Below are positions 1 through 47,845 of a DNA stretch of 49,588 bases, in pieces. The position numbers were made by a program, and so were the translations under genes. Source of the stretch: Candidatus Aenigmatarchaeota archaeon. Its GTDB lineage: Archaea > Aenigmatarchaeota > Aenigmatarchaeia > QMZP01 > QMZT01. Below the pieces are notes generated by a model. That model made no database searches and was not told the origin of the DNA. It worked only from the letters and a program-made list of their open reading frames with translations. Location of the stretch: NCBI GenBank assembly GCA_016932215.1, contig JAFGDH010000001.1, forward strand, positions 1 through 49,588, given 5' to 3'. Numbering within the stretch: the first letter of the stretch is position 1; each line of letters starts with the position of its first letter.

Positions 1-533
1 ATTGGTAATCCCTCAAACCAACCCTCCATTGGGCAGTTCTCGAACATAGCTTCCCGTCCGTGGTCCATGGCGTGTTTTAACAGATCAGGAAATACTTTCC
101 CGTATTCTATCAGACTTTCATCCACCGTTTTGGTCTGGTTCCTGCCCGGGAATATGCCTATGTGCTTGACACCCAGTTTCTCCGCCGCCAAAACGAGATT
201 CTTAAAGTGGCTATGGAAGTATTCTCTTTGTGATGGATCAGCGGTTAGCATGTTCTCGTAGAATGCCAGTGAAGATATTCCATTCATGCCGAATTTCAGG
301 ATTGTTGAATTGATATCGTCTGCCATCATTTGCGTGAAATTCTTCGCATCCCCCAGATGGTTTGCTATGTATGCCGCTTCGCCTTCTCCTCTACTGGTTT
401 CTTCCGGCCATGCCGCTAATTCCAGATATTCGAATTCGTTTTCCCCTCCGAACTTGGCAACCTCTGCCAAACTATGGTCTGCCAGGGGTACTGTCAAAAA
501 ACCGATAGGTACAACCTTCTTTTCACTCCCCAT
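1..533 (-). CDS. Sugar phosphate isomerase/epimerase-like TIM-barrel protein (3' end outside window)
   Basis: The reverse-strand frame opens at the ATG at 533 and runs off the window edge, so only about 177 N-terminal residues are present. The start is preceded by a strong Shine-Dalgarno-like GGAGGG at 541-546. The protein begins with a beta strand (GFLTVPLAD), then a segment (EFEYLELAAWPEE) typical of the xylose isomerase-like / AP endonuclease 2 TIM-barrel family. Later blocks (KHIGIFPGRNQTK, REAMFENCP) match the beta strands carrying metal ligands in that family. Such proteins isomerise or epimerise sugars or sugar phosphates; the substrate cannot be told. It lies downstream of pheST on the same strand with an 87-base gap holding AT-rich, TATA-like sequence, so it may have its own promoter. 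The family is fairly sure; the exact role is unknown. Confidence 0.75.
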   Translation of the reverse strand, partial: MGSEKKVVPIGFLTVPLADHSLAEVAKFGGENEFEYLELAAWPEETSRGEGEAAYIANHLGDAKNFTQMMADDINSTILKFGMNGISSLAFYENMLTADPSQREYFHSHFKNLVLAAEKLGVKHIGIFPGRNQTKTVDESLIEYGKVFPDLLKHAMDHGREAMFENCPMEGWFEGLP

Positions 534-9308: not shown

Positions 9309-10166
9309 TTAAAATAATCTTATCTGGAACTGGCTCAGGAACGAGAAAATCGTGTAACCTATGGTTATCAGCAGCAGGGAATGCTTAAGCCCTGCTATTA
9401 TTGAACCCTCTGCCATCTTGCCGGTCGCAAGCCCGGCGAAAAAACCCTGGACTATTATGAAATTTATGAAGGTCTGCGCGAACAATTCTGGAGGTATTTC
9501 CGCTCCCGTGGCGGACACGTCGGTTCCCGTCGTTGATGGGAGGGCGGGAAGAAGGAACGTCTGTAGTATTATCAGAATGAATATGAAAACGAAGAATATC
9601 AGGTATGACGTCACGAGCTGGCTTTGCACGGATGCTGACCTTTCCTGCTTGATTTTGTTTATTTCTATGAGAGATCTACCGATTGCACGAAGCGTGTCGG
9701 ACAGTTTTCCCCCAACCTTGTAAGTTTCTATTATCGTGGAAACGCTCCTTTTTATTGGTGTTGATTTTGACTTTTCCGCGAAAAGGAGCAGCGCTTTTTC
9801 GAACGGGATACCCCAATCCACTTTAGTGGATATCTCCTTCACATAAGATGTGAGTGATCTGTAATCCCTTTTTGCCGAATGCTTAAGAGCGATTGGAAGA
9901 GTCATGCCGCTGTCTATCGATTCCGTGAGGTCGGTTACGAAAAGGATGAACTCACCTTCCATTTCCTTGCTGATTTTGTATTTTGAATAGTACAGTAGGA
10001 ACGGGGGGACTATTGCTATAAGAGCGCCCGTTATGTTAAAAAGAGGAACAAGTATGGGCACCATCTCGGAAAAAACGAATATGTTAAGGAGAAGTATCGA
10101 TGCACCTATCACTACGAAAATCACTTCAAGTATTATGTTCTCGTATTTTTTAGCTATTTCTACCAT
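9309..10166 (-). CDS. Type II/IV secretion platform protein, TadC-like (T2SSF domain)
   Basis: A 285-residue inner-membrane platform protein of type IV pilus or Tad-like machines. Two N-terminal membrane segments (about 12-62) precede a cytoplasmic helical domain with the T2SSF pattern (FVTDLTESIDSGMTLPIALKHSA, then DWGIPFEKALLLFAEKS and VGGKLSDTLRAIGRSLIE), and at least three C-terminal membrane segments follow. The ATG directly abuts the stop of the upstream T2SSF gene (TAG then ATG). The pair thus resembles separate TadB/TadC proteins more than the single fused archaeal FlaJ. The likely motor is the VirB11-type ATPase encoded at 15869-17356. The substrate pilins are probably among the secreted proteins in the window, by inference. 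Confidence 0.85.
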   Translation of the reverse strand: MVEIAKKYENIILEVIFVVIGASILLLNIFVFSEMVPILVPLFNITGALIAIVPPFLLYYSKYKISKEMEGEFILFVTDLTESIDSGMTLPIALKHSAKRDYRSLTSYVKEISTKVDWGIPFEKALLLFAEKSKSTPIKRSVSTIIETYKVGGKLSDTLRAIGRSLIEINKIKQERSASVQSQLVTSYLIFFVFIFILIILQTFLLPALPSTTGTDVSATGAEIPPELFAQTFINFIIVQGFFAGLATGKMAEGSIIAGLKHSLLLITIGYTIFSFLSQFQIRLF

Positions 10167-11069
10167 CTATATCCCTGGGTATGTCATCTGAAGGAAGGCT
10201 ATGTACCCTATGTTAAATATTGGTAAAACAACGAAAGTCACCAATACTATCAGCTGTGGTATTTCCAGGCCAAGAACCTGTCCTCCTATTATAAGCATGG
10301 TTGCCAGCAGCGCAATCATCATCAGTGGGGCTGCCACCAGAAGGGCTGTGTATATGTCTGCATACGTCGAAAGCGTTTTAAGGTATTTTTCCCTCTTGAT
10401 TCTGTAGTCAAAAAGCGCTTTGTCTGACATCTCTTTGAGGTATTCTATCAGATCCCCGCCCCCCTCAATGGTTGAAACCACTCCAAGGAGAAGTTCCCTG
10501 AAATTCTTGGATGGGGTTCTCTCCCCCACGCTCTTTATCGCATCCACCGAGCTCATTCCGAATGTCTTTATGTTTCTCATTACCATTTTCGATTCATTCG
10601 ATATCTCGCCATATTCCTTGAAACCGGTCAGCAGTTCAAACATGAATTCCGGAGGTATCCCCGAAGAGGCGATAGCGGCCATGTGTGTGGTTGCAAAAGG
10701 GAGATTGTTATCTATGGATTTTTCGATGCTTTTTTCCCTCTCTAACGGATAAACGTAAAAAAGAATGAATGTTATGGATGCCACCATTATCGGGAAGAAT
10801 ATAATCGAAAATATGTATATCACGAAGTTTATTTCGAAGAATGACGTGAAAAAGACATACAGTGCCAGTAAGGAAGCGAAGAAGGATATTACGGTTGAAA
10901 GCAGGATCATGCACACCCACGTTTTAAGAAGTATTCTCATCCTGGAATTTTTCATGTGAATTTCCATAGACTTGAAGTGTTCAATATTCTTTTCAACTAT
11001 CCCCTCGAAAAAGAATAGTGATATTTTTTTGTATAATGACAACATGATTAAATATTGTGATTCTTTCAT
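10167..11069 (-). CDS. Type II/IV secretion platform protein, TadB-like (T2SSF domain)
   Basis: A 300-residue membrane protein with the same layout as its downstream neighbour: membrane segments near 48-105, a cytoplasmic helical T2SSF region (NNLPFATTHMAAIASSGIPPEFMFELL, then VGERTPSKNFRELLLGVVSTIEGGGDLIEYL), and C-terminal membrane helices (YTALLVAAPLMMIALLATMLIIGG, LIVLVTFVVLPIFNIGYIAFL). The motif A..SG.PPEFMFELL corresponds to the platform protein helix that contacts the ATPase. The two genes form a two-gene operon transcribed away from the SRP RNA. The start used is the ATG at 11069; an ATG eight codons in (MLSLYKK) is also possible. Confidence 0.82.
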   Translation of the reverse strand: MKESQYLIMLSLYKKISLFFFEGIVEKNIEHFKSMEIHMKNSRMRILLKTWVCMILLSTVISFFASLLALYVFFTSFFEINFVIYIFSIIFFPIMVASITFILFYVYPLEREKSIEKSIDNNLPFATTHMAAIASSGIPPEFMFELLTGFKEYGEISNESKMVMRNIKTFGMSSVDAIKSVGERTPSKNFRELLLGVVSTIEGGGDLIEYLKEMSDKALFDYRIKREKYLKTLSTYADIYTALLVAAPLMMIALLATMLIIGGQVLGLEIPQLIVLVTFVVLPIFNIGYIAFLQMTYPGI

Positions 11070-15868: not shown

Positions 15869-17356
15869 TCATTTCTTTATTTTTTTGAGGAGCACGTCCG
15901 GTTCCTTGTAATAATCGGATATTATTCTCCCCACCTTGTCTATTTCATTTATTTTATTGTTTACCATCCAGAGAAGTATTCTTTTTTTATCCGCTAAATT
16001 GTCAAGTATTTCATTATCGTTCATCCCGGAGAACAGCTTTATGTCGCTTAACACCCTCTGGGATTTGCTCCACTCTATTATTTTGTCGCTTGAGGGAACC
16101 CATTTATGTATCGTGTTTAGTTCTATCTTCATCTCCTCCAGCCTCCCTCCCGGGATAAGTTCCGTGATCTCGAACAGCCTCCTTATACCCTTTCTCCTGT
16201 CCCTGTGCATGACGGCAATCAGCTGTAGTGAAGTGAGGAGAGATGTCGGAATGTTTATCGGAGGGTTTACAAGCCTCTTGAAGGTCTCTTCTGCTGTGTT
16301 TGCGTGCATCGTGGAATAAACCGAATGGCCAGTGTTTATTGCCTCGAATAGGACTTCAGCTTCCTTACTCCTTCTTATCTCACCCACTATAACCCTGTCC
16401 GGCCTCATCCTGAGCGCATTTATCATAAGATCCAGCATCTTCACCTCGCCCTTGCCTTCTATGTTGGGTGGTCTGGTGGTCATAGGGACCCAGTGAAGGA
16501 AATGCGGAAGCTGGATTTCCCTGGTATCCTCTATGCTTATTATTCTTTGTGTAGGCGGAATGAACATGCTTAGAACGTTAAGGAAGGACGTCTTTCCGGA
16601 AGCAGTGCCTCCGGTACATACTATGTTCATTTCATACTGTATTGCGAGCCAGAGGAATGCTGCCACGTCCGATGACACTGTGTTTGCCTTTATGAAATCC
16701 GTTATTGTCCAAGGTGTTCTCGCGAATTTTCGTATGGTAAGCGTGTTTCCGTTAGAAGATATCGGAAAAAGCGTTGCGTTTGCCCTGTCACCGGTCGTGA
16801 GATACGCATCCATCAAAGGCTTGAGGTTAGTTATCTGCGTGCCTACTCTTCTTCCGATCTGGGAGGCATAATTGTAAATCAGCGCTTCGTCCTTCAGCAT
16901 AATATTGGTTTTAAGCCAGCCGAACTGCCTGTGGTAAACCCATATGGGATCCTTTGCGGAATTTATTACAATTTCCTCAAGGTTCTGATCCTTTAGCATG
17001 AATTCCACAGGACCCAGCCCGAGGGACTCCTGCAGGAGTATTCCGACCAGTATGTGGTTGTCTCCCTGTGAAAGATGAGGAAGCTCTTTGTTGAGCATGG
17101 CCTCAGCCTTCTCGGTGAATTTCTGCTTCATTTCTGTCATTTCTTCGGGGTTGAGTATCTCCTCGGTTTTGAACGTTAACTGTGTGACTATCTCTTCCCT
17201 TATCGCATCCAGAACAGCTCTAGTTGCCTGCTCTATTTTGGGGTATTTTACCCTGTATATAGGAACGTATTCCCTTTCCTCCTCTGATATCCTTACACTG
17301 GCTTTCACACCCTCAGAATCTACGCTATAATTTTGCGAAATAGGATTTTCCTTCAT
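15869..17356 (-). CDS. VirB11/TadA/FlaI-type secretion ATPase
   Basis: A 495-residue type II/IV secretion motor ATPase. Walker A is CTGGTASGKTSFLN near residues 243-256. The Asp box is ISIEDTREIQLPH, Walker B is RPDRVIVGEIR, and the His box is GHSVYSTMHANTAEE. The N-terminal domain (LGLGPVEFMLKDQNLEEIVINS) is standard. This motor drives assembly of type IV pili, archaella or Tad-like pili. It overlaps the upstream gene by four bases (ATGA), so it ends a three-gene operon. Its platform partners are probably the TadB/TadC-like proteins at 9.3-11.1 kb. A typical archaellum set (FlaH, FlaF/G, flagellins) is absent, which favours an adhesive or secretion pilus. Confidence 0.93.
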   Translation of the reverse strand: MKENPISQNYSVDSEGVKASVRISEEEREYVPIYRVKYPKIEQATRAVLDAIREEIVTQLTFKTEEILNPEEMTEMKQKFTEKAEAMLNKELPHLSQGDNHILVGILLQESLGLGPVEFMLKDQNLEEIVINSAKDPIWVYHRQFGWLKTNIMLKDEALIYNYASQIGRRVGTQITNLKPLMDAYLTTGDRANATLFPISSNGNTLTIRKFARTPWTITDFIKANTVSSDVAAFLWLAIQYEMNIVCTGGTASGKTSFLNVLSMFIPPTQRIISIEDTREIQLPHFLHWVPMTTRPPNIEGKGEVKMLDLMINALRMRPDRVIVGEIRRSKEAEVLFEAINTGHSVYSTMHANTAEETFKRLVNPPINIPTSLLTSLQLIAVMHRDRRKGIRRLFEITELIPGGRLEEMKIELNTIHKWVPSSDKIIEWSKSQRVLSDIKLFSGMNDNEILDNLADKKRILLWMVNNKINEIDKVGRIISDYYKEPDVLLKKIKK

Positions 17357-21702: not shown

Positions 21703-22488
21703 ATGGTTGCAACCATAAAAGCATTAGATGCACTGAAGAGCATCGGACTGAATCTGTACGAAAGAAAGATTTTTGTAGCACTTTTAGCTAGGGGTGTTGC
21801 TACAGCGGGTGAGCTTTCTCAGATAGCGAACGTTCCGAGATCTCGTTCTTACGACATTCTGGAAAGTCTGGCGGAAAAGGGTTTTGTCGTTGTTCAGCCT
21901 TCTAAACCAATAAGATATGTTGCTTTGGCCCCAAAAGACGCTTTGGACAGGACCAAGGATAACCTCAAAAGGAACTATGAAGAGATGGCCGGCAGGATAG
22001 AGGAACTGAAGACTTCCAGCGTATCAGAGGAGCTGGAGAAGATTTACAAAGATGGCCTGAACATGGTCCAGCCTTTCGAGATGACGGGAACACTCAAGGG
22101 AAGACATTCTATAAACCAGCATCTGAACTCCTTGTTCAAGAAAGCAACAAAGGAGATCAAGATAATCACAACCGATGACGGGATGAATGAGCTGTATTCG
22201 AACCACTACAACTCTCTGAAGAGACTCGTGAAGAGAGGAGTTAAGCTTAAGATCCTGGCACCGATGAGTGAAACAGCGCCTTTCAAAGCATTTTCGGAAA
22301 TAGCTGAAGTCAAGAACATAAAGAAACCGCTTAACAGGTTATACTCGATAGACGACAAACATGTTGTATTCTCGCTCACTGACGACAAGAAGGTTCATCA
22401 CACGCAGGATGTCGCTTTCTGGGCGCAGTCTCAGCATGCGGTCAAGAACTTCGCAGAACCATTCTTCGGTTTCGCATGGGTATCTTGA
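21703..22488 (+). CDS. TrmB-family transcriptional regulator
   Basis: A 261-residue regulator. Residues 8-75 form a winged helix (GLNLYERKIFVALLARGVATAGELSQIANVPRS is the helix-turn-helix part, with SRSYDILESLAEKGFVVVQ) of the TrmB type. A coiled-coil linker (about 85-115) follows, then a phospholipase-D-like effector domain (KEIKIITTDDGMNELY, LKILAPMSE, FSLTDDK) like that of TrmB proteins, which usually bind sugars. The sugar-binding C-terminal TrmB-C domain is not complete, so the ligand is open. It has its own strong promoter. It points towards the unrecognised cluster at 22.5-27.4 kb and could regulate it, but this is only proximity. Confidence 0.85.
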   Translation: MVATIKALDALKSIGLNLYERKIFVALLARGVATAGELSQIANVPRSRSYDILESLAEKGFVVVQPSKPIRYVALAPKDALDRTKDNLKRNYEEMAGRIEELKTSSVSEELEKIYKDGLNMVQPFEMTGTLKGRHSINQHLNSLFKKATKEIKIITTDDGMNELYSNHYNSLKRLVKRGVKLKILAPMSETAPFKAFSEIAEVKNIKKPLNRLYSIDDKHVVFSLTDDKKVHHTQDVAFWAQSQHAVKNFAEPFFGFAWVS

Positions 22489-22535: not shown

Positions 22536-24347
22536 CTATCTCAATTCTTCCTTTCTAAATTCTTTTTGCTTACCCTTCCTTGTTGCCGCTGAAGACAGGA
22601 AGCCCCATTCTTCTTCAGGGACCTCCAGAAGGTCCTTCAGCGGCTCGAAACGGTGATCCATCATTATCTGCCTCTGGCGTTCGACATCGCCGGCCGTCAT
22701 CTTAAGACCGTAGAAATCCATTGGCAGGTCTTCGGGTTTTATGTCCTTCTCCAGGAAATTGGCCATTATTCTTAGCGCATCAACGGCCTGTTTAAAGGGA
22801 TCCTCACCGCCGCCCCTCTCGAAAATCAGATATACCGGATGTTCCCTGCCCATCCCGCTTCTCCTCATGTAATGTAGGCACTTGTACAGCTTCATGTCAC
22901 CAAGCTCTATCGGGTAATGTGAATGCAGAGGGTTCGGCGAATTGGAATGAACTGAAACTATGTACTTCCCGAAATCCTTGATTTTTTTGGTCAGTTCATC
23001 CAGTTCCTCCACCGGGTCAAGCCCCTGGGTGGCCATGTGCTCGAAATCCATTGTTATGAACACCCTGTTGGTTTTCAGAGTCTTCCTGATGGTCTTTATC
23101 GCGGCGTAAAGCTGTTTAGGGTGGTATATCATATACAATCCCGCGTATTTCGGGTCCCTTGCATCGGGGACCTCGAACGTCAGCTTGAGTTCCTTCGCGT
23201 ATTTCACGAGCTCCGGCTTGTTCTTCAGCTCATTTTTTATGTAATCCCCTTCCAGCCAGTCCAGTATCTTCTTTGTGTGGCCTTCCAGGAACTTCGCCCC
23301 GCAGGCGGCGTAATAGAATTCCTTGAACACTCGGTCGTTCCCGTCTTCCGCTCTCTTCCAGGCATTGTCCAGCCAGTAGAAATCACTGTAATCCAGCTTG
23401 TATTCCCCGACAACCTTATCCTTATATACCTCCACCATGGCTTTCCAGATAGGATCCTTGGTGTAGAAGAGATAATGTGACATGATCTTGTAAGCATCAC
23501 TCAGGCGGCCGTAAGTCTTGACGTTCCAGTCCCTCACATCCTTGTCATTGCTTTCGATCTTTTTCCTGACAATCTTTTCCATATAACTTCTCGCCAGTTT
23601 GGATTCATCAACACCTATTTTTTCTGTTATATGCTTAATCTTTGCCTGGGCATCCTTGTTTATTTTTTTCATCTCTTCCATCATCTCTTCCTCAGTAGTC
23701 TCCCCGGCCTTGAATTTAAGCTCCGCCTGTTTTGCCTTCAATCCGGCTTCCTGCTCGATTCTCGAGGTCTCTTCCCTCTCCCTTACCCTCATCTCGGAGT
23801 GCGCCGTCTGGGCCGCTTCCACCCTTTCCTCCTCGTTCATTATCTGGGCCGGGTATCTTCCCTCCCCCAGATCCCACATATGCTTGATGAACCATTTCCC
23901 GAGCTTTGGCTCCTCGTGCATCACCTCGGAGATGAACCTGCCCTCATGGTCGCACATGGTGATTTCCAGCTTCGTACCCACGTAAGTGAGCATCTCCACC
24001 CAGAAATGGAGGCACGAATGGAACAAGGAATATTTGCATCCCGAATTGACGGCGGAACGTATGGATTTCTGCATGTGGTCGTATGCGTCCCTCCAGTCAG
24101 ACCTTTCGGGAATCGTTATCGGCACCGTCAGGGAACCGTGAAAAAGAAGGTCAATCCCCTGCTTTTCCGATATATAGCGAACCTCCTTTCCGTCAGTATA
24201 ATCTATCTCGTGAGGCACGTCTCCGGATATTTCGATGACATTCGCTCCCCTGGTCAGCCCGTAACCTATCTTTTTCACGATCGTTGCGAGTTCTTCCGCC
24301 CTCGCCACGTAATACAAACCCGTAGTAACTCCAACCTTCAGTGGCAT
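22536..24347 (-). CDS. Xylose isomerase-like TIM barrel split by a long coiled-coil insertion
   Basis: A 603-residue protein. Residues 1 to about 120 begin like an AP endonuclease 2 / xylose isomerase TIM barrel (VGVTTGLYYV, GANVIEISGDVP, IDLLFHGSL, GCKYSLFHSC). Residues about 385-560 complete it (YAGLYMIYHP, VFITMDFEHMAT, KYIVSVHSNSPNPLHSHYP, VYLIFERGGGEDPF). The acidic and histidine residues in MDFEH, VHSNS and FERGG are positioned as metal ligands. Between them lies about 260 residues, including a charged coiled coil (175-245) and an aromatic-rich helical part (280-370). I know no described enzyme with this insertion. The ATG at 24347 directly abuts the stop of the upstream 570-residue gene, so the two are coupled. 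Confidence 0.7.
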   Translation of the reverse strand: MPLKVGVTTGLYYVARAEELATIVKKIGYGLTRGANVIEISGDVPHEIDYTDGKEVRYISEKQGIDLLFHGSLTVPITIPERSDWRDAYDHMQKSIRSAVNSGCKYSLFHSCLHFWVEMLTYVGTKLEITMCDHEGRFISEVMHEEPKLGKWFIKHMWDLGEGRYPAQIMNEEERVEAAQTAHSEMRVREREETSRIEQEAGLKAKQAELKFKAGETTEEEMMEEMKKINKDAQAKIKHITEKIGVDESKLARSYMEKIVRKKIESNDKDVRDWNVKTYGRLSDAYKIMSHYLFYTKDPIWKAMVEVYKDKVVGEYKLDYSDFYWLDNAWKRAEDGNDRVFKEFYYAACGAKFLEGHTKKILDWLEGDYIKNELKNKPELVKYAKELKLTFEVPDARDPKYAGLYMIYHPKQLYAAIKTIRKTLKTNRVFITMDFEHMATQGLDPVEELDELTKKIKDFGKYIVSVHSNSPNPLHSHYPIELGDMKLYKCLHYMRRSGMGREHPVYLIFERGGGEDPFKQAVDALRIMANFLEKDIKPEDLPMDFYGLKMTAGDVERQRQIMMDHRFEPLKDLLEVPEEEWGFLSSAATRKGKQKEFRKEELR

Positions 24348-26060
24348 CTATGGTCCCACACCGCTTAGTCGATAGCAGGTTTCTTTTATAAGCTCGTTTA
24401 ATTCTGCAACCTGCGGTCCGAAGTAATCCCCGAACGTTTTGTTTATCCTTTCCCTTACAGTGTGCTCGTATGGCCCGGGCTTCAAGAAATAATATCTCAG
24501 GGGCATGAACATACCCTTCAGCCAGCCCCCGAAAGATTCACCTGTTTTGACGGTTTTCTTCTTGAACTTGAACAATGATTCCAGCCTGCGGACGGCTTCT
24601 TCCTCTTTCTTGAATTCATCCTCAATGCTTTTTAGAAATCCCTTTTCCACCTTGCTCAGCCCTATGAGTTCCTCCACTTCGCGGTCGAATGCCTTCTCCT
24701 TAACCGCCATTTCCATGTGGAAGAGAAGCATGACATTCTTGGAAAGTATGAAAGGATAGATATGGAAGTACTGGTCCTCCATCACCATCGGGCCGCTGGA
24801 ACCCTTCTTGTACTGGCATTCATAGTCTATGTCAACGAACGCGTAATAAGCGAACCTCTCGTCGAAAATCGGGCCGGGATGGGCTCCCAGTATCTCACCT
24901 TTCTTGTCCCTAGCTCCGGTCATACGTATTTTCTTTATGAAATCCCTTGCGACTATGTAATATGGATTGTGGCCTTCCTTATTCTCCCTTTTTTTCATGT
25001 CCGCTTTGTCGTGGTATATCCTGACATTGTATTTTTTCTCAAGAATCTTGCACTTCTTCTTTACCCAGTCATCGTACGGGTCAAGTTCGTAACCCTGACC
25101 CTGAAGTATGATCGGCTTGGCCATCTCCTCCGGCATGATCGGCTTGTACATCCAGAGTTTGGCGTAAACGTAACCCTGCGGCGTGTTTGCGAAAACCAGG
25201 GGATTGTGAAGGTTGGCTGAAGGAACCTGTATCTCTTCCTGTTCCCTGATCTGCTTATAAAGCGATACTATCGGCTTCAGCCATTCCCTGTACTGGTCTA
25301 TCGACCTTTCCCTCGATTGTAACAGATTGCGGATGCGTGCGTACCTTTCCTTTACGTCCGGGAAGAATAGCTTCTTCCATTCCTTGTAAAGCTCGTTCTT
25401 CGTGCGTAGCACGACAGCCTCTGCTTTCGAGACCTTGACCTCCTTCATTATCTCCTCAGGGCTGTCTAGCTTCGTGGGCATTCTTATGAAATCTGAGATT
25501 ATGGTAGGCCACCTCTTGGCCATGGTAATCATCGAATAACCCTCACCCGTGTATGCGTCTACCCTGTCGACGAATAGCGATCGAAGGACGTGCTCGTCAC
25601 TCTCGTTCTCCGCCTTCTTGAAGAAGTCGAGTATGTCCCTGTACTTCCTGAGGTCATGCTTCAGAAGCTCGTAATCTGCGACCGCCTGGGCGGCGCTCGC
25701 CATACCAGATTTTATTCTTCCTTCCAGCCGCTCCTTTTGAGACATCAGCGGAACGAAAGCGGGCGGAGCGGCGGGGGTGACCGCAATGAATTCATCTGCC
25801 TTGTAAACGTTCCAGTGCCACTTCGCCGATCTGTAAAGCCATACGTTGTATATTATCTCAGACTGCCCTTCCAGCGTGACCGGATTAATTGATGTTCTCT
25901 GGTCGATAAGGGCCGGAGAAACCACCGCCTCCCCCAGCAAGCCCTTTTTCGCCCTTGCCTCGTCGAGAATATCGTCGACGAGCAGCCCAGACGGGACTTC
26001 GATTTCCTTTTTCTTCTTCCTCAGTCCGAGATCAACCGCGATATCATTTATTATTCCCAT
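24348..26060 (-). CDS. Conserved-looking protein of unknown function, 570 residues
   Basis: I do not recognise this family. There is no signal peptide and no clear membrane helix. The N-terminus (DLGLRKKKKEIEVPSGLLVDDI) is basic, and the body is aromatic-rich with several charged helical stretches (LKHDLRKYRDILDFFKKAE, IRNLLQSRERSIDQYREWLKP). A region around 370-450 has beta-like segments (YYIVARDFIKKIRM, FAYYAFVDIDYECQY, QYFHIYPFILSKNVMLLFHMEM). The C-terminal half holds another coiled-coil-like stretch (LKSIEDEFKKEEEAVRRLESLFKF). Context: it is coupled to the split TIM-barrel gene and lies 49 bases after a small two-helix membrane protein. It may form a complex with both; that is inference. 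Confidence 0.6.
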   Translation of the reverse strand: MGIINDIAVDLGLRKKKKEIEVPSGLLVDDILDEARAKKGLLGEAVVSPALIDQRTSINPVTLEGQSEIIYNVWLYRSAKWHWNVYKADEFIAVTPAAPPAFVPLMSQKERLEGRIKSGMASAAQAVADYELLKHDLRKYRDILDFFKKAENESDEHVLRSLFVDRVDAYTGEGYSMITMAKRWPTIISDFIRMPTKLDSPEEIMKEVKVSKAEAVVLRTKNELYKEWKKLFFPDVKERYARIRNLLQSRERSIDQYREWLKPIVSLYKQIREQEEIQVPSANLHNPLVFANTPQGYVYAKLWMYKPIMPEEMAKPIILQGQGYELDPYDDWVKKKCKILEKKYNVRIYHDKADMKKRENKEGHNPYYIVARDFIKKIRMTGARDKKGEILGAHPGPIFDERFAYYAFVDIDYECQYKKGSSGPMVMEDQYFHIYPFILSKNVMLLFHMEMAVKEKAFDREVEELIGLSKVEKGFLKSIEDEFKKEEEAVRRLESLFKFKKKTVKTGESFGGWLKGMFMPLRYYFLKPGPYEHTVRERINKTFGDYFGPQVAELNELIKETCYRLSGVGP

Positions 26061-26109
26061 AATATCCTGTTAATAATTGTAGCAGGAGAATTAAAATTGT
26101 TTGCATTGA

Positions 26110-26301
26110 TTATTGTATCATTATAAGGTATATTCCCACTACCAGGAGTATCAAACCCATTATTATCCCGTTGACGTCAAACTTGGGTCCTGACTGGGGA
26201 TTCTGGTGCGACTGGATTCCTGGAAAAAACACCGTCAGAAACAATCCTATCAAAATAAGCACAACACCTACCAGTTTCAGGGCGATCCATTCCAAAACCA
26301 T
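26110..26301 (-). CDS. Small two-helix membrane protein
   Basis: A 63-residue protein with two hydrophobic helices (about 6-27 and 46-62) joined by a short polar loop (GIQSHQNPQSGPKFDVNG). No family is recognised. It is first in a three-gene reverse run (membrane protein, 570-residue protein, split TIM barrel) and shares a 45-base divergent promoter region with the pair of paralogs on the other strand. It may anchor the downstream products to the membrane. The single ATG at 26301 is the only good start. Confidence 0.55.
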   Translation of the reverse strand: MVLEWIALKLVGVVLILIGLFLTVFFPGIQSHQNPQSGPKFDVNGIIMGLILLVVGIYLIMIQ

Positions 26302-26346
26302 ACTAATTTATAGTTAACTTAAAGAAAATATAAATAGTGATGAAAT
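26302..26346. promoter_or_regulatory. Compact divergent promoter
   Basis: The 45-base gap between the divergent genes contains AATATAAATA at 26326-26335. Read on the plus strand it is a TATA-like box about 20 bases before the ATG at 26347, implying a leaderless or nearly leaderless transcript. Read on the minus strand (TATTTATATT) it lies about 28 bases before the ATG at 26301. A single AT-rich element could thus serve both directions and co-regulate the two gene groups. Inference from position only. Confidence 0.4.
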
Positions 26347-26859
26347 ATGCCCGCCTTTGCCCGAACAAAAATGGTTCTGCAGGAAGACTGTTATCAGGAC
26401 AAGCCTGAAAGGCCGCTGATGAAGTATGTCGGCCCCAACGTGATAAAGCTTTATTACAAGTCCTACGAACTTCTTAAAGCGATATTCCAGTGTTCTGACG
26501 CCGACATAGAGGAAGAAAGGTTCAACTGGGGGAAGGGGGAAAAGGAGAAGTTCAAGGTCAGATGGTTTGTCCACAAGGACATAGACGCTTACACGTACCT
26601 TTACATAAGGGTTGACGTTTCTGGATCAGGTGATGAAAAGAACGGTAGCGCCAAGATACAACTCAAACCGGTCATGAGGACCGAATACCCTCAGGACACC
26701 ATATGGCAGAGGTCATTGTTTTACGAGATGATGAGGATGTTCTGGCACAGGGCGTTCTACCATGAAAAAAGGGAAAGGATCGGCGAGGAGTGCAGATCAC
26801 TCGTTATCCAGTTCCAGCGGCAGATGAATGAATTCTTCAAGCAGTTAAGGGAAATGTGA
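26347..26859 (+). CDS. Unknown protein, first of a tandem paralog pair (170 residues)
   Basis: I do not recognise the family. The protein aligns over its length with its downstream neighbour: LQEDCYQ / IQDDCFA, MKYVGPNVIKLYY / VEYAGPDPFAFYR, ELLKAIFQCS / NILRPVFEIG, FKVRWFVHKDIDAYTYL / VQLYVHWLAKRSYSAFT, AKIQLKPVMRTEY / FRMEIEPILRHNI. The order is helix, several antiparallel strands, then a long amphipathic C-terminal helix, vaguely like START/SRPBCC helix-grip proteins, but this is weak. There is no signal peptide. The ATG at 26347 lies just after a TATA-like box. Overlapping GTG and close spacing make an operon with the second copy. Confidence 0.6.
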   Translation: MPAFARTKMVLQEDCYQDKPERPLMKYVGPNVIKLYYKSYELLKAIFQCSDADIEEERFNWGKGEKEKFKVRWFVHKDIDAYTYLYIRVDVSGSGDEKNGSAKIQLKPVMRTEYPQDTIWQRSLFYEMMRMFWHRAFYHEKRERIGEECRSLVIQFQRQMNEFFKQLREM

Positions 26860-26864
26860 CCTGC

Positions 26865-27362
26865 ATGGCCAAGGTAGAGATACAGGATGATTGTTTTGCA
26901 CCAAGGAGAACGAGATGGGTAGAATATGCCGGACCTGACCCGTTCGCTTTCTATCGCGAGGGAAGGAACATACTCCGTCCGGTCTTCGAGATCGGTACGT
27001 CATCCACGGGAGAGCCCAGGTTCATGTGGGACTGGACAGGCGATCCCGTCCAGCTGTATGTTCACTGGCTGGCCAAAAGGAGCTACAGCGCATTCACCAC
27101 TATGATGTTCAGCTGCAGGTGCGTGGGTTTCAAGTCCAAAGCGAAAAACGAAGGGACCTTCAGGATGGAGATAGAACCCATACTGAGGCACAACATATCG
27201 GGAAGCAGGCTCGTGATATTTTTCTGGTGGATGTACTGGTATCTTTTTTACAACCGGGCGAGGCAGGGCATGATCGAAAGGTGCAAGGACCAGGCCGAGA
27301 GGTTCATGAACGTCATAAAGACAATGTACCATCTCGGGACTTTCACCGAAGAAACAATCTGA
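26865..27362 (+). CDS. Unknown protein, second of a tandem paralog pair (165 residues)
   Basis: This is the diverged duplicate of the preceding gene (see aligned blocks there). It keeps the DDCF, YAGPDPF, YVHWLAKRSYSAF and MEIEPILRHNI blocks. Its C-terminal helix is more aromatic and hydrophobic (LVIFFWWMYWYLFYNRAR), which might insert into or lie on a membrane, unlike the charged equivalent in copy one (EMMRMFWHRAFYHEKRER). The ATG at 26865 is preferred; a GTG at 26856 overlaps the upstream stop. The stop lies one base from the convergent ABCE1 gene. The two copies may form a heterodimer; that is inference. Confidence 0.6.
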   Translation: MAKVEIQDDCFAPRRTRWVEYAGPDPFAFYREGRNILRPVFEIGTSSTGEPRFMWDWTGDPVQLYVHWLAKRSYSAFTTMMFSCRCVGFKSKAKNEGTFRMEIEPILRHNISGSRLVIFFWWMYWYLFYNRARQGMIERCKDQAERFMNVIKTMYHLGTFTEETI

Positions 27363-44524: not shown

Positions 44525-44920
44525 CTAACTCCTTCTGAGCGGGTTTTTGGGCGACTGTTCTGCGAGGAACAACCGCTTCGGATTGGGATGTCCATTGACG
44601 GTCACGCCCAGCATCTCCATGAGTTCCCTCTCGAATAGGTCTGCTCCGGGAAATATCCCGGTGATGGTGTCGATTTCCGGTTTCTCCTTGGGCAGGGTTG
44701 TCCTGAGATTTATGACTGTGCCCTCGTGTTCCATGTGATAAATAACATCTATCCCTTCTGCCACATCCACGCCGCTTATTGTAATGACCCTCTGTATCCC
44801 TGAATCATGTAGTTTTTTCATGATATTTTTTAACTTCGAACTGTCGAATTTAGTCCATATTTCATTACCCTTGACAATGACTTCTTCCATGAGACCTTTG
44901 AGAATATCTTCCGCGTTCAT
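44525..44920 (-). CDS. mbhK: Membrane-bound hydrogenase/NuoC-like subunit
   Basis: A 131-residue peripheral subunit homologous to complex I 30-kDa NuoC. Core motifs include ITGIFPGADLFERELMEMLGVTVNGHPNPKRLFL, whose FPGADxFERE-type pattern matches MbhK-type subunits of group 4 membrane-bound hydrogenases. It couples the catalytic subunits to the membrane arm. ATG overlaps the MbhJ stop (ATGA). In hydrogenase operons the large Ni-Fe subunit gene follows directly; here the frameshifted HIT gene follows after one base instead. Confidence 0.85.
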   Translation of the reverse strand: MNAEDILKGLMEEVIVKGNEIWTKFDSSKLKNIMKKLHDSGIQRVITISGVDVAEGIDVIYHMEHEGTVINLRTTLPKEKPEIDTITGIFPGADLFERELMEMLGVTVNGHPNPKRLFLAEQSPKNPLRRS

Positions 44921-45369
44921 TTACACCCCTCCATCCTTTTCAATATTTTTACCACACCCGCTATTATAGCTTCCGGTTTGGGAGGACAGCCCGGAACGTA
45001 GACATCTACCGGGATGATTTTGTCCAGCGGGCCATCGGAATTATACGAATCGTAAAAAACACCCTTTGATATCGCACATGAACCTACCGCCATTACGTAT
45101 TTAGGATCGGGCATCTGCTGATATACAGTTAGTAACCTGTCTTTCACCTTCTTTGTCACAACCCCCTCAACTATCAGTATATCCGCATGCCTCGGGGACC
45201 CCTTTTCCATTATACCGAACCTTTCCACATCATACTTTGGCGTGAGGCTTGCCAGTATTTCGATAGAGCAGCCATTGCATCCCCCTGCTCCGAAATGTAT
45301 TATCCATGGGGATTTTTTTCTGCAGTATTTCACAAGCCTGCCCATAACCGAACCGCTTTTTTTATTCAC
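44917..45369 (-). CDS. mbhJ: Group 4 hydrogenase small subunit / NuoB-like
   Basis: A 150-residue electron-transfer subunit with a 4Fe-4S cluster. With GTG at 45369 as start (overlapping the upstream TAG as TAGTG), the cluster ligands are C31 and C34 in GGCNGCSIE, C98 in VGSCAISKG, and C128 in VPGCPPKPEAI. The CNGC arrangement (two Cys separated by two residues) is that of group 4 Ni-Fe hydrogenases and Mbx relatives; respiratory NuoB has adjacent Cys. An ATG at 45345 (MGRLVKY) is an alternative start. A frame starting further upstream would lie inside MbhI and is unlikely. Confidence 0.88.
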   Translation of the reverse strand: MNKKSGSVMGRLVKYCRKKSPWIIHFGAGGCNGCSIEILASLTPKYDVERFGIMEKGSPRHADILIVEGVVTKKVKDRLLTVYQQMPDPKYVMAVGSCAISKGVFYDSYNSDGPLDKIIPVDVYVPGCPPKPEAIIAGVVKILKRMEGCK

Positions 45370-45665
45370 TAAATCACCAAAACCATAATAACTATCATCA
45401 CTATCCCGACAACCATCCATATGACATAATCAGACAGATTTCCAGTGTGAACATCCCTAAGCCTGTTCAGACCCATGGATTCTATTATTGCCTGGTAAAA
45501 ATTATCCGATGTCACGGACACCTTCTGGAAAGGCTCCCCGCAGGTGTATGTCTCTCCCTTTTTACCTTCCGGTCTGAATGACCTGTTACCGATCAGATAT
45601 ATGAGGAATCCTAAAAGAATGAAACCCATGAAGGATCCTATGAATAATGTCCAGTTTTCGAACAT
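45369..45665 (-). CDS. mbhI: Small membrane subunit, MbhI/NuoA-like
   Basis: A 98-residue protein with two membrane helices (about 5-25 and 76-97) and a loop containing YTCGEPFQKV, a hallmark of the small subunit that joins the antiporter and hydrogenase modules. NuoA has a comparable role. By order (H, I, J, K) the P. furiosus naming fits, but NuoA is an equally acceptable name. Stop and next start overlap by one base, so translation is coupled. Confidence 0.7.
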   Translation of the reverse strand: MFENWTLFIGSFMGFILLGFLIYLIGNRSFRPEGKKGETYTCGEPFQKVSVTSDNFYQAIIESMGLNRLRDVHTGNLSDYVIWMVVGIVMIVIMVLVI

Positions 45666-45666
45666 A

Positions 45667-47094
45667 TTATATCACACTACCCCCCAGAACAGCATTAATA
45701 TATTGGCTCTGGTTTAATAAAGCGTTCGTTGCCGGCTCTACAAACATGATACCTATCTGAGGAAAAATCCCTATAACTATGCACATGATAGTGATTATTA
45801 TCACCGGAATCAGCATCATCTTGGGCGTTTTATTCACTATTTTTATGTTGGAATGTCCCATAAAAATGCATGAAAATACCTTGATGTAATAAGCCATAGT
45901 AATGGCTGAAACTATTATCGCTATTGCAGTTATTACCGGGCTTACCTGCCATGTGGCCATATATATCAGCCATTTGGAAGCGAACCCGTTCAAAGGAGGG
46001 ACTCCCGCAGTACCGAGCGCACCGACACCGAAGCAAAAAGCCACCCATGGCATCTGCTTTCCAATCCCTCCGAGCCTGTTCATATCCCTTGTCCCTGTAT
46101 GCCAGAGAACAATCCCGAAAGACATGAAAAGCAGACTCTTGAGCAGTATATTGTTCAGCAGATGGAAAAGACCGGCAGTTACCCCGAGAGAAGTACCGAT
46201 TCCGATCGCAACGAAAATGTACCCGATCTGGCTGACAGTCGAGTAAGCTATCAGCCTCTTGGCATCCTTTTGGATTAATGCCATCAAACCCCCTAATATC
46301 ATCGTGACCAGCCCGAGTAATATCAGCATCCAGAAAACACTTACAATTCCGAATACGGTGAATATTACCCTTATCATCATGTAAACACCGGAACCCACTA
46401 TGACGCTGGAAAGGAGAGCGGACACAGGCGAAGGGGCGGCGGGATGGACATCCGGCAGCCAGAAGTGGAAAGGAACTATTGCTGATTTCAGGGAAAGACC
46501 CCCGAGTATCAGGCCAAGAACAACCAGAAAAGCAGGTCCGCCGTAAACCTTCGTTGCCAGGTCCGCCATGTTGAGGGTTCCCGCGAGGCCGTAAAGCATC
46601 GCTATCCCCAGCAAAAGGAATGATGATGACAATGACCCCACGACAAGATATTTGAATGCGGCCTCTGTCGATTCTTTGTTCAGAAGGAATGCGACCAGCG
46701 CATAGGAAGAGACGGACATAAGCTCGAAAAACACGTACATGTTGAATATGTCACCGGTGAGGGATATCCCGAGAAGCCCTATTGTGAGCAGGCAAAGAAG
46801 GGTGTAGTACCTGTGTTTCCTTTTCTTGATGTATTTTACGGAGTATATTGCAGTGAGGGACATTATGCCTGTTATTAGAAGCGCCATGAAAAGCCCGAGA
46901 CCGTCAAGCACCCATACTATACCGAATGGAGGGTTCCATCCCGAGAACGCAAAAACCATTGTTTCAGGTGCGAGATAAATGAAAATCAAAAAGAAGAATG
47001 AAAAAACTATCGCTGATATGGCTATCATGTCCTTCTTCAGCACAAGCACTAGAAACGCGGCCAAAAATAAAACGCTTATCGCTATCGTTATCAT
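45667..47094 (-). CDS. mbhH: Proton/sodium antiporter-type subunit MnhD/MbhH
   Basis: A 475-residue polytopic membrane protein (about 14 helices) of the Nuo L/M/N and Mrp family. It translocates protons or Na+. Key residues are the Glu in YVFFELMSVSSYAL, the Lys in GLSLKSAIVPFHFWLPDVHPAAPSPVSALLSS and following GRLIAYSTVSQIGY-like KRLIAYST. The order and neighbours (MnhB, MnhC, then MnhD) are those of Mrp antiporters and of Mbh/Mbx complexes. Two bases separate it from MnhC, one from MbhI. Confidence 0.92.
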   Translation of the reverse strand: MITIAISVLFLAAFLVLVLKKDMIAISAIVFSFFFLIFIYLAPETMVFAFSGWNPPFGIVWVLDGLGLFMALLITGIMSLTAIYSVKYIKKRKHRYYTLLCLLTIGLLGISLTGDIFNMYVFFELMSVSSYALVAFLLNKESTEAAFKYLVVGSLSSSFLLLGIAMLYGLAGTLNMADLATKVYGGPAFLVVLGLILGGLSLKSAIVPFHFWLPDVHPAAPSPVSALLSSVIVGSGVYMMIRVIFTVFGIVSVFWMLILLGLVTMILGGLMALIQKDAKRLIAYSTVSQIGYIFVAIGIGTSLGVTAGLFHLLNNILLKSLLFMSFGIVLWHTGTRDMNRLGGIGKQMPWVAFCFGVGALGTAGVPPLNGFASKWLIYMATWQVSPVITAIAIIVSAITMAYYIKVFSCIFMGHSNIKIVNKTPKMMLIPVIIITIMCIVIGIFPQIGIMFVEPATNALLNQSQYINAVLGGSVI

Positions 47095-47096
47095 TA

Positions 47097-47453
47097 TTAT
47101 CCCTTCAGCCTGTTCATTTCCTCCGTGTTGAGCGTGTTGAAATGCCGGTATGCGATTATTGATATGCCCAGCGCGAGTGCTGTTATGCTTATGCTTATCA
47201 CTATAGAAGTAAGCACCAGTGCCTGTGGCACAGGGTCAACCGATAACTGCGCGAAAGTGTTGACGTTTTCATGCGTCATTATGGGAGGTATTCCGTTTCC
47301 CCTGAATCCTATTGTTATAAGAAGCAGATGTATGGCATCTGTGAAAATAGCAAGACCTATTATTTTCTTTATCAGGTTTGGTTTCATTGCTATGCAGTAG
47401 ACTGCCAGCATCATCATCAGACCGGACGTTAAATACAACTCTATCATATTCAT
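47097..47453 (-). CDS. mbhG: Mrp/Mbh subunit MnhC (NuoK-like)
   Basis: A 118-residue protein with three membrane helices, NuoK-like. The core (GLAIFTDAIHLLLITIGF, then NTFAQLSVDPVPQALVLTSIVISISITALALG) matches MnhC/MbhG, which contains the VPQALVLTSIVIS signature of the family. It is part of the antiporter module and sits between MnhB and MnhD with overlaps. Confidence 0.92.
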   Translation of the reverse strand: MNMIELYLTSGLMMMLAVYCIAMKPNLIKKIIGLAIFTDAIHLLLITIGFRGNGIPPIMTHENVNTFAQLSVDPVPQALVLTSIVISISITALALGISIIAYRHFNTLNTEEMNRLKG

Positions 47454-47845
47454 TCCTTCATCAGCAAAAACACTATCATGGTCAGCGCCATCGTTACCAT
47501 TATCCCCCCGAATATGTTAAGCAGCAGTATCTGCTGGGCGCTCCATAGGTTAAAAATCATACCGGTCGGGGCAAGGATGCTCCTGAAAAACGTTTCGAAC
47601 AGAACGATGAATATGAGGAAGAAGGCCATGATTCCCTCAAGTATATGTGCCGTCTCCTCCTTTATTATCCTTTCTGCCTTTTTGAGCCCGAAAGCCAAGG
47701 CAACGAGCGTTAGGCCAACAACTATCATGGTTCCTCCGGGGAAGGAACCTCCGGGGGTCAGGTGGCCATGCATTATCGTATACACGCCGAAAAGGAGTAT
47801 GAATGGGAAGATGCCCTTTATCATGGTCCTCACTATCACATCCAT
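47450..47845 (-). CDS. mbhF: Mrp/Mbh subunit MnhB C-terminal-type
   Basis: A 131-residue membrane protein with four helices. GVYTIMHGHLTPGGSFPGGTM is the MnhB family signature, and LLNIFGGIMVTMALTMIVFLLM is a C-terminal helix. It belongs to the Mrp antiporter part of the complex. It shares a four-base overlap with MnhC and one base with MbhE. Confidence 0.92.
   Translation of the reverse strand: MDVIVRTMIKGIFPFILLFGVYTIMHGHLTPGGSFPGGTMIVVGLTLVALAFGLKKAERIIKEETAHILEGIMAFFLIFIVLFETFFRSILAPTGMIFNLWSAQQILLLNIFGGIMVTMALTMIVFLLMKE

Follow-up and report, generated by a model that had tools for sequence, protein, structure and literature searches.

The analysed stretch of DNA, hereafter the window, comprises 49,588 nucleotides of a Candidatus Aenigmatarchaeota archaeon (assembly GCA_016932215.1, contig JAFGDH010000001.1, positions 1 to 49,588), and contains at 22536-27362 a divergent cluster of five genes, here called A to E. 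An earlier note, made from the letters of the window, had described three reverse-strand genes and two forward paralogs on either side of a shared 45-base promoter; the five open reading frames, their strands and coordinates, the abutment of B and A, and the 45-base gap between C and D were all as it had given them. The features are listed by window position, with the strand in brackets.

22536-24347 (-): gene A, 603 residues, a split TIM barrel (AP_endonuc_2), from the open reading frame and Pfam
23208-23981 (-): insertion in A, approximately residues 123-380, between the barrel halves, with approximate borders, from the stretch unmatched in the endonuclease IV profile match
24348-26060 (-): gene B, 570 residues, mainly helical, abutting A, from the open reading frame and predicted fold
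26110-26301 (-): gene C, 63 residues, a two-helix membrane protein and first gene of the C-B-A run, from its hydrophobic segments
26302-26346 (no strand): spacer between C and D, 45 bases, a putative bidirectional promoter, from the sequence read directly
26347-26859 (+): gene D, 170 residues, paralog of E, from the open reading frame
26856-27362 (+): gene E, 168 residues, paralog of D, from the open reading frame

Zero bases separate the end of B from the start of A, D and E overlap by 4 bases, and the starts of C and D lie exactly 45 bases apart. The spacer, actaatttatagttaacttaaagaaaatataaatagtgatgaaat, carries a TATA-like stretch approximately 35-40 nt before D and another, in the opposed direction, approximately 25-33 nt before C, and would be a putative bidirectional promoter.

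Homology, metal-ligand conservation, synteny and co-occurrence were computed. The search of the phylum took in 156 Aenigmatarchaeota genomes (32 families, 104 genera), of which 39 are of high quality (at least 90% complete); gene families were mapped with iterated profiles, and approximately 100 neighbourhoods were compared. Of the 156 genomes, 142 carry A, 144 carry B and 143 carry a member of the D family; within the high-quality set, each of the three occurs in 38 of 39. In 87 of the 95 loci with room, B is followed immediately by A on its own strand, frequently with overlap or abutment, D/E are divergent and upstream of B in 69/84 loci, the D-E tandem is represented by 72 pairs, and C homologs precede B in 46/97 loci, all on B's strand. 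When neighbours were clustered blind to the earlier gene list, the top families included B, A, D/E and a C-like protein with two helices. Since it recurs over the whole phylum, the arrangement is far beyond chance. Departures from it take the form of A relocated behind E with the set still together (locus L078), of the whole set on one strand (L113), and of D/E or A placed elsewhere in the genome (part of family f1, and families f28, f30, f31 and f32).

The context in which the cluster is conserved is housekeeping, with ABCE1 among the neighbours in 24 loci, YchF/OBG in 22, and ribosomal proteins as well. The families of A, B, D and the linked nucleotidyltransferase (see below) are all four jointly absent from four genomes, against 0.009 expected under independent loss. 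Because three of these four genomes are less complete, and clustered genes may drop out of drafts together, the weight of this co-loss rests on genome G013 (family f10, 94% complete), which is without all four families and is the sole high-quality genome without B. The proposal of the earlier note that the genes share a common job is strongly supported by the phylum-wide synteny, in which the members neighbour each other across related genomes, by the pairing of B and A in another phylum, and by the joint absence in G013. Apart from this, G013 is a natural starting point for finding what takes the place of the gene set.

A matches Pfam AP_endonuc_2 (PF01261) at E = 4.4e-8 (33.6 bits, cut-off 31.1), and its nearest solved structures are those of endonuclease IV (2x7v/4hno, E = 6e-5). 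The endonuclease IV match consists of two blocks, profile positions 61-122 and 356-421, separated by an unmatched part, and a helical insertion of approximately 260 residues splits the barrel, in agreement with the split TIM barrel of the earlier note; its statement that no gene has a clear known function held for B, D and E, which match no family in Pfam, NCBIfam or PHROGs, and is qualified for A, whose family is recognisable, above the AP_endonuc_2 cut-off. Eight metal ligands are conserved among 85 A sequences (H70 in 85, H110 in 85, E392 in 85, D434 in 85, H437 in 81, H467 in 84, H477 in 82, E510 in 85), and H357, within the insertion, is invariant (85/85). Five of the eight were aligned to endonuclease IV directly by the profile match, and the others follow the endonuclease IV ligand order, which is H69-H109-E145-D179-H182-H216-D229-H231-E261.

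Sugar isomerases of this superfamily need only an E-D-H-E quartet, which holds a single metal. A has this quartet and, in two phyla, near-invariant H70, H110, H437 and H477 in addition, and because isomerases need only the quartet while A keeps four more histidines, a multi-metal phosphodiesterase site would be the better reading of A than an isomerase site. The carbohydrate modification offered in the earlier note does not agree with this metal site, which is of the endonuclease IV type and has more than the four isomerase ligands. A gave no match in NCBIfam, including its deoxyribonuclease IV models. The source genome encodes a second AP_endonuc_2 protein (G000:C32; PF01261 E = 1.8e-34, NCBIfam nfo E = 2.4e-15, below the model cut-off), and since this is a canonical-looking deoxyribonuclease IV, A is probably not the housekeeping repair enzyme. 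Compared with endonuclease IV (Nfo/Apn1), A is alike in the barrel fold of both halves and in keeping eight of the nine metal ligands, their order unchanged, but differs in its length of 603 residues, in the insertion with H357, in the loss of the ninth ligand, and in being encoded with B, C, D and E. A further AP_endonuc_2 match (E = 1.7e-9) lies at the contig end, at window positions 18-365 (-).

Profile searches covered two phyla, the Aenigmatarchaeota genomes above and 279 genomes of a second phylum called Nanoarchaeota, a name inferred from the label of one Woesearchaeota-labelled genome that led there. The B profile found remote homologs of approximately 400-590 residues, with E-values down to 3e-19, in 110/279 Nanoarchaeota genomes. 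From these, 40 neighbourhoods were sampled, 35 of them with room downstream of B, and in 28 of the 35 an A homolog (AP_endonuc_2 barrel with a long insertion) lies downstream on the same strand. The Nanoarchaeota A homologs match Pfam AP_endonuc_2 at E-values of 1e-9 to 1e-20 (seven tested) and keep the same eight ligands (H71, H113, E312, D356, H359, H396, H407 and E438, in 10-11 of 11), and cross-phylum profile-profile comparison gave E = 1e-20 for B and E = 2e-14 for A. When 84,980 species were scanned for a strict B motif, each of the 80 matches listed was either from Aenigmatarchaeota or a seemingly mislabelled or mis-binned record.

D-like proteins of the Nanoarchaeota are distant, occur in pairs or triplets near FttA, MetRS, DnaG and a nucleotidyltransferase, and are not beside B-A; those at L257-L264 suggest a wider uncharacterised DPANN domain family. 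In many Nanoarchaeota loci a gene of 170-200 residues separates B from A; it was considered as D-like and rejected, the sequences being diverse and mostly charged, coiled-coil-like or disordered. One Woesearchaeota-labelled metagenome-assembled genome has a complete Aenigmatarchaeota-like D-E/B-A contig (L230/L255, G156:C109), by bin contamination, which is probable, or by transfer; the L230 record was not accepted as cross-phylum transfer, contamination being likelier because the same assembly has a Nanoarchaeota-type D-like pair on another contig.

For B, no family was found at a meaningful level in Pfam, NCBIfam or PHROGs. An AlphaFold2 model from 90 homologs, carrying out the structure prediction proposed earlier for this protein alone, was confident (predicted local distance difference test score, pLDDT, 85.7; predicted template modelling score, pTM, 0.81), with two long helices framing a conserved core, followed by a C-terminal strand-and-helix region. 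The core carries the motifs HD..R.Y, D..D..TGE and RWPTI..DF, and the invariant residues are D136, D165, D168, F191, L218, K221 and W228. Foldseek comparison of the model with the PDB gave no significant match (best E = 0.07), which makes the confidently modelled fold of B a new predicted fold. Two further features were tried and rejected, namely a D-like domain inside B, which secondary structure had suggested and profile-profile comparison did not support, and an amphipathic N-terminus (MGIINDIAVDLGLRKKKK in the window protein), whose hydrophobic moment is weak and which is unconserved. C has two hydrophobic segments, as expected of the two-helix membrane protein described in the earlier note, and membrane association of the cluster is plausible, this membrane protein lying on B's strand wherever it accompanies the locus.

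The paralogy of D and E, also claimed earlier, was borne out by hhalign profile-profile comparison (E = 1.3e-35), and neither protein belongs to a family in Pfam, NCBIfam or PHROGs. The AlphaFold2 model of D (pLDDT 89) consists of antiparallel strands and a 45-residue C-terminal helix, and its fold matches are weak (template modelling scores, TM-scores, of approximately 0.1-0.36), with some START-type lipid-transfer proteins (Ups1/PRELI, CERT START) among them. In its antiparallel strands, its long C-terminal helix and these weak Foldseek matches, the model of D recalls the START/SRPBCC helix-grip proteins, but D has no sequence similarity to them and TM-scores at which no shared fold is established.

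Next in frequency among the partners of the cluster comes a Pol-beta-type nucleotidyltransferase whose second domain is HEPN-like. It lies downstream of A on the same strand in 59/97 Aenigmatarchaeota and 21/40 Nanoarchaeota loci, and its family occurs in 138/156 Aenigmatarchaeota genomes, including 38/39 of high quality. Its GS..SDxD motif is invariant (G83, S84, S94, D95 and D97 in 25/25), the HEPN-like Rx4H motif is largely kept (R in 21/25, H in 23/25), and its nearest solved structures are kanamycin nucleotidyltransferase (E = 1.7e-7) and the Mnt antitoxin (E = 7e-4). It resembles kanamycin nucleotidyltransferase and the type VII toxin-antitoxin system MntA-HepT in the GS..SDxD motif and the HEPN-like domain; however, type VII systems consist of two separate genes and are patchy, whereas the linked protein is fused, near-universal and linked to A and B, and the similarity is confined to the nucleotidyltransferase core.

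From these data, the B-A pair would be the invariant centre of a core DPANN cluster, which in Aenigmatarchaeota takes the form of these five genes. A would be a metal-dependent hydrolase of the endonuclease IV superfamily and would most likely use two or three metals to cut a phosphodiester or phosphate ester; B would be translated together with A and serve as its dedicated partner or scaffold; C may tether the assembly to the membrane; and D and E, probably as a heterodimer or as a binding domain in two copies, could supply one more subunit. The fused nucleotidyltransferase-HEPN protein encoded alongside in most relatives would suggest that the substrate is RNA or some other nucleic acid, and nucleic acid is the likeliest substrate because of this partner and of the housekeeping, information-processing neighbourhood. 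We tentatively propose, at a probability of approximately 0.38, a membrane-associated, metal-dependent phosphodiester-cleaving complex that most likely acts on nucleic acid, with the complex, its location, its chemistry and its substrate all inferred.

Several observations weigh against this proposal. B and D are no more basic than the products of neighbouring genes, so that charge gives no sign of nucleic-acid binding, and the ninth ligand of A, the equivalent of Asp229 at position 475, is variable (H in 43, P in 21 and T in 9 of 85). In the family of the window genome the nucleotidyltransferase is not beside A, and the family profile found no member at E<=1e-10 in the window's draft genome, which is 89% complete. 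Fused MNT-HEPN proteins typically have no predicted RNase residues and are thought to be modifying enzymes (PMC3710099). The sole candidate nucleotidyltransferase of the source genome was rejected, as the match falls within a nucleotidyltransferase/HEPN-like pair of adjacent genes, in the second of the two.

An alternative that keeps the phosphodiester chemistry, and with it the lipid modification suggested in the earlier note, is membrane-bound processing of lipid or envelope, in which A would hydrolyse a phospholipid or envelope phosphodiester and helix-grip-like D/E would carry lipid. The membrane protein C and the START-type proteins among the fold matches of D are consistent with it, and trinuclear zinc centres like that of endonuclease IV occur in phospholipase C too, but at the low TM-scores of D no shared fold is established and none of the recurrent neighbours was recognised as a lipid gene, so that we regard this alternative as doubtful. 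A mainly structural machine, such as an envelope, division or attachment scaffold built by B and D/E and regulated or processed by A, would suit the long helices and new fold of B, the small proteins, basic at the N-terminus and coiled-coil-like at the C-terminus, that recur beside E and B, and the near-universality of the cluster in the phylum; it appears rather unlikely, since the invariant catalytic-type residues of A and of the nucleotidyltransferase suggest that chemistry matters. Assignment of A as a variant apurinic/apyrimidinic endonuclease with accessory subunits in DNA repair draws on its endonuclease IV fold and metal ligands and on a DNA ligase gene (LigB), which is nearby in the window and in 11 loci. 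Against it stand the separate canonical-looking deoxyribonuclease IV, the failure of A to match any deoxyribonuclease IV model of NCBIfam, and a membrane subunit that is hard to account for in repair, which together make this role improbable.

Membership of sugar isomerases in AP_endonuc_2, a weak match of a Nanoarchaeota A homolog to D-psicose 3-epimerase in NCBIfam (E = 0.0036, far below cut-off), and the TrmB-like gene adjoining the cluster would be accommodated if A were a sugar isomerase or epimerase in a glycan pathway under TrmB control. The TrmB-like gene (21703-22488, + strand; Pfam TrmB, E = 1.3e-20) does converge on A at the cluster end and has the helix-turn-helix domain of TrmB-family regulators, as the earlier note had recognised, but the sugar-linked control suggested with it did not stand, as such a gene is a neighbour in just 15/97 loci and lies outside the conserved cluster; its match to the sugar-sensing domain falls below cut-off, and TrmBL2, the NCBIfam model it fits best, is matched far below cut-off. 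With endonuclease IV as the closest solved structure, four extra histidine ligands near-invariant in two phyla, and no sugar genes recognised among the recurrent neighbours, a sugar enzyme is distinctly improbable. Least of all is a toxin-antitoxin or anti-phage defence module to be expected: the MNT-HEPN protein resembles parts of type VII toxin-antitoxin systems and candidate families of PADLOC, yet presence in 38/39 high-quality genomes beside housekeeping neighbours (ABCE1, YchF/OBG, ribosomal proteins) is the opposite of the patchy pattern of such modules, and we consider it very improbable. In PADLOC, A, B, D and E had no match at E<=0.01, and the nucleotidyltransferase core alone matched. 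A viral origin was also rejected, with no relative of B in viral contigs, no PHROG match below 0.05, and low TM-scores for the viral structure matches of D.

The cluster proteins have probably been counted already as lineage-specific 'dark matter'. In the portions of the two studies covered, an Aenigmarchaeota-specific Module 128 is made up of lineage-specific proteins without functional predictions (Castelle 2021, PMC8204110), and the DPANN-specific clusters cls.004340 ('alpha helical protein') and cls.004259 ('MNT fused to HEPN') are placed in a housekeeping context and given top experimental priority (Makarova 2019, PMC6393860); those portions hold no statement of one linked cluster with an endonuclease IV-like enzyme. 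It is plausible, as a lead, that B is cls.004340 and the nucleotidyltransferase cls.004259. In the literature covered, with supplementary tables and subscription papers outside its scope, nothing was found that describes these genes as a single linked system or reports their endonuclease IV-like partner. A bolder form of the preferred nucleic-acid reading, in which B-A-(MNT-HEPN), D/E and C would make up an unrecognised membrane-tethered nucleic-acid processing machine of DPANN archaea, perhaps degrading and salvaging nucleic acid that these dependent symbionts take from the host, and uniting several top-priority 'dark matter' families, is unlikely.

Further observations concern the surroundings of the cluster. 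One genome carries a second D/E and B copy, again divergent, approximately 140 kb from the first (G117:C1 879045-880688, CP070801.1, L199). Another recurrent family of small proteins, found beside E in the Aenigmatarchaeota and divergent from B in the Nanoarchaeota, begins with a basic 'MGIFxxIKxxFxKK'-like segment and ends, after a low-complexity linker, in a coiled-coil-like region (examples at L131:541-783, L146:2714-3115, L119:4134-4460 and L288:9461-9787). Elsewhere in the window, NuoC-, NuoB-, MrpD/NuoN- and MrpB-like genes stand in a row at 44525-47845 (-), which suggests a complex of the Mrp type or a membrane-bound hydrogenase; in DPANN, families of Mrp antiporters are reported to be apparently absent (PMC9258230). 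At 9309-11069 (-) and 15869-17356 (-), ArlJ/FlaJ-like membrane proteins encoded by two neighbouring genes and an ArlI/FlaI-type ATPase correspond to a type IV pilus-like system.

DPANN archaea are mostly uncultured, small-genome symbionts or parasites whose lineage-specific genes are nearly all unannotated, and the analysis turns separate unknown families into one testable system, with a gene pair kept in two phyla, a catalytic site open to assay and mutation, a partner of predicted new fold, and additional components that nearly all high-quality Aenigmatarchaeota genomes contain. Because it is kept in 38 of 39 high-quality genomes of approximately 1 Mb, the cluster is very likely essential. 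It probably forms a basic cellular machine of these archaea, and its solution would uncover a process fundamental to this branch of life.

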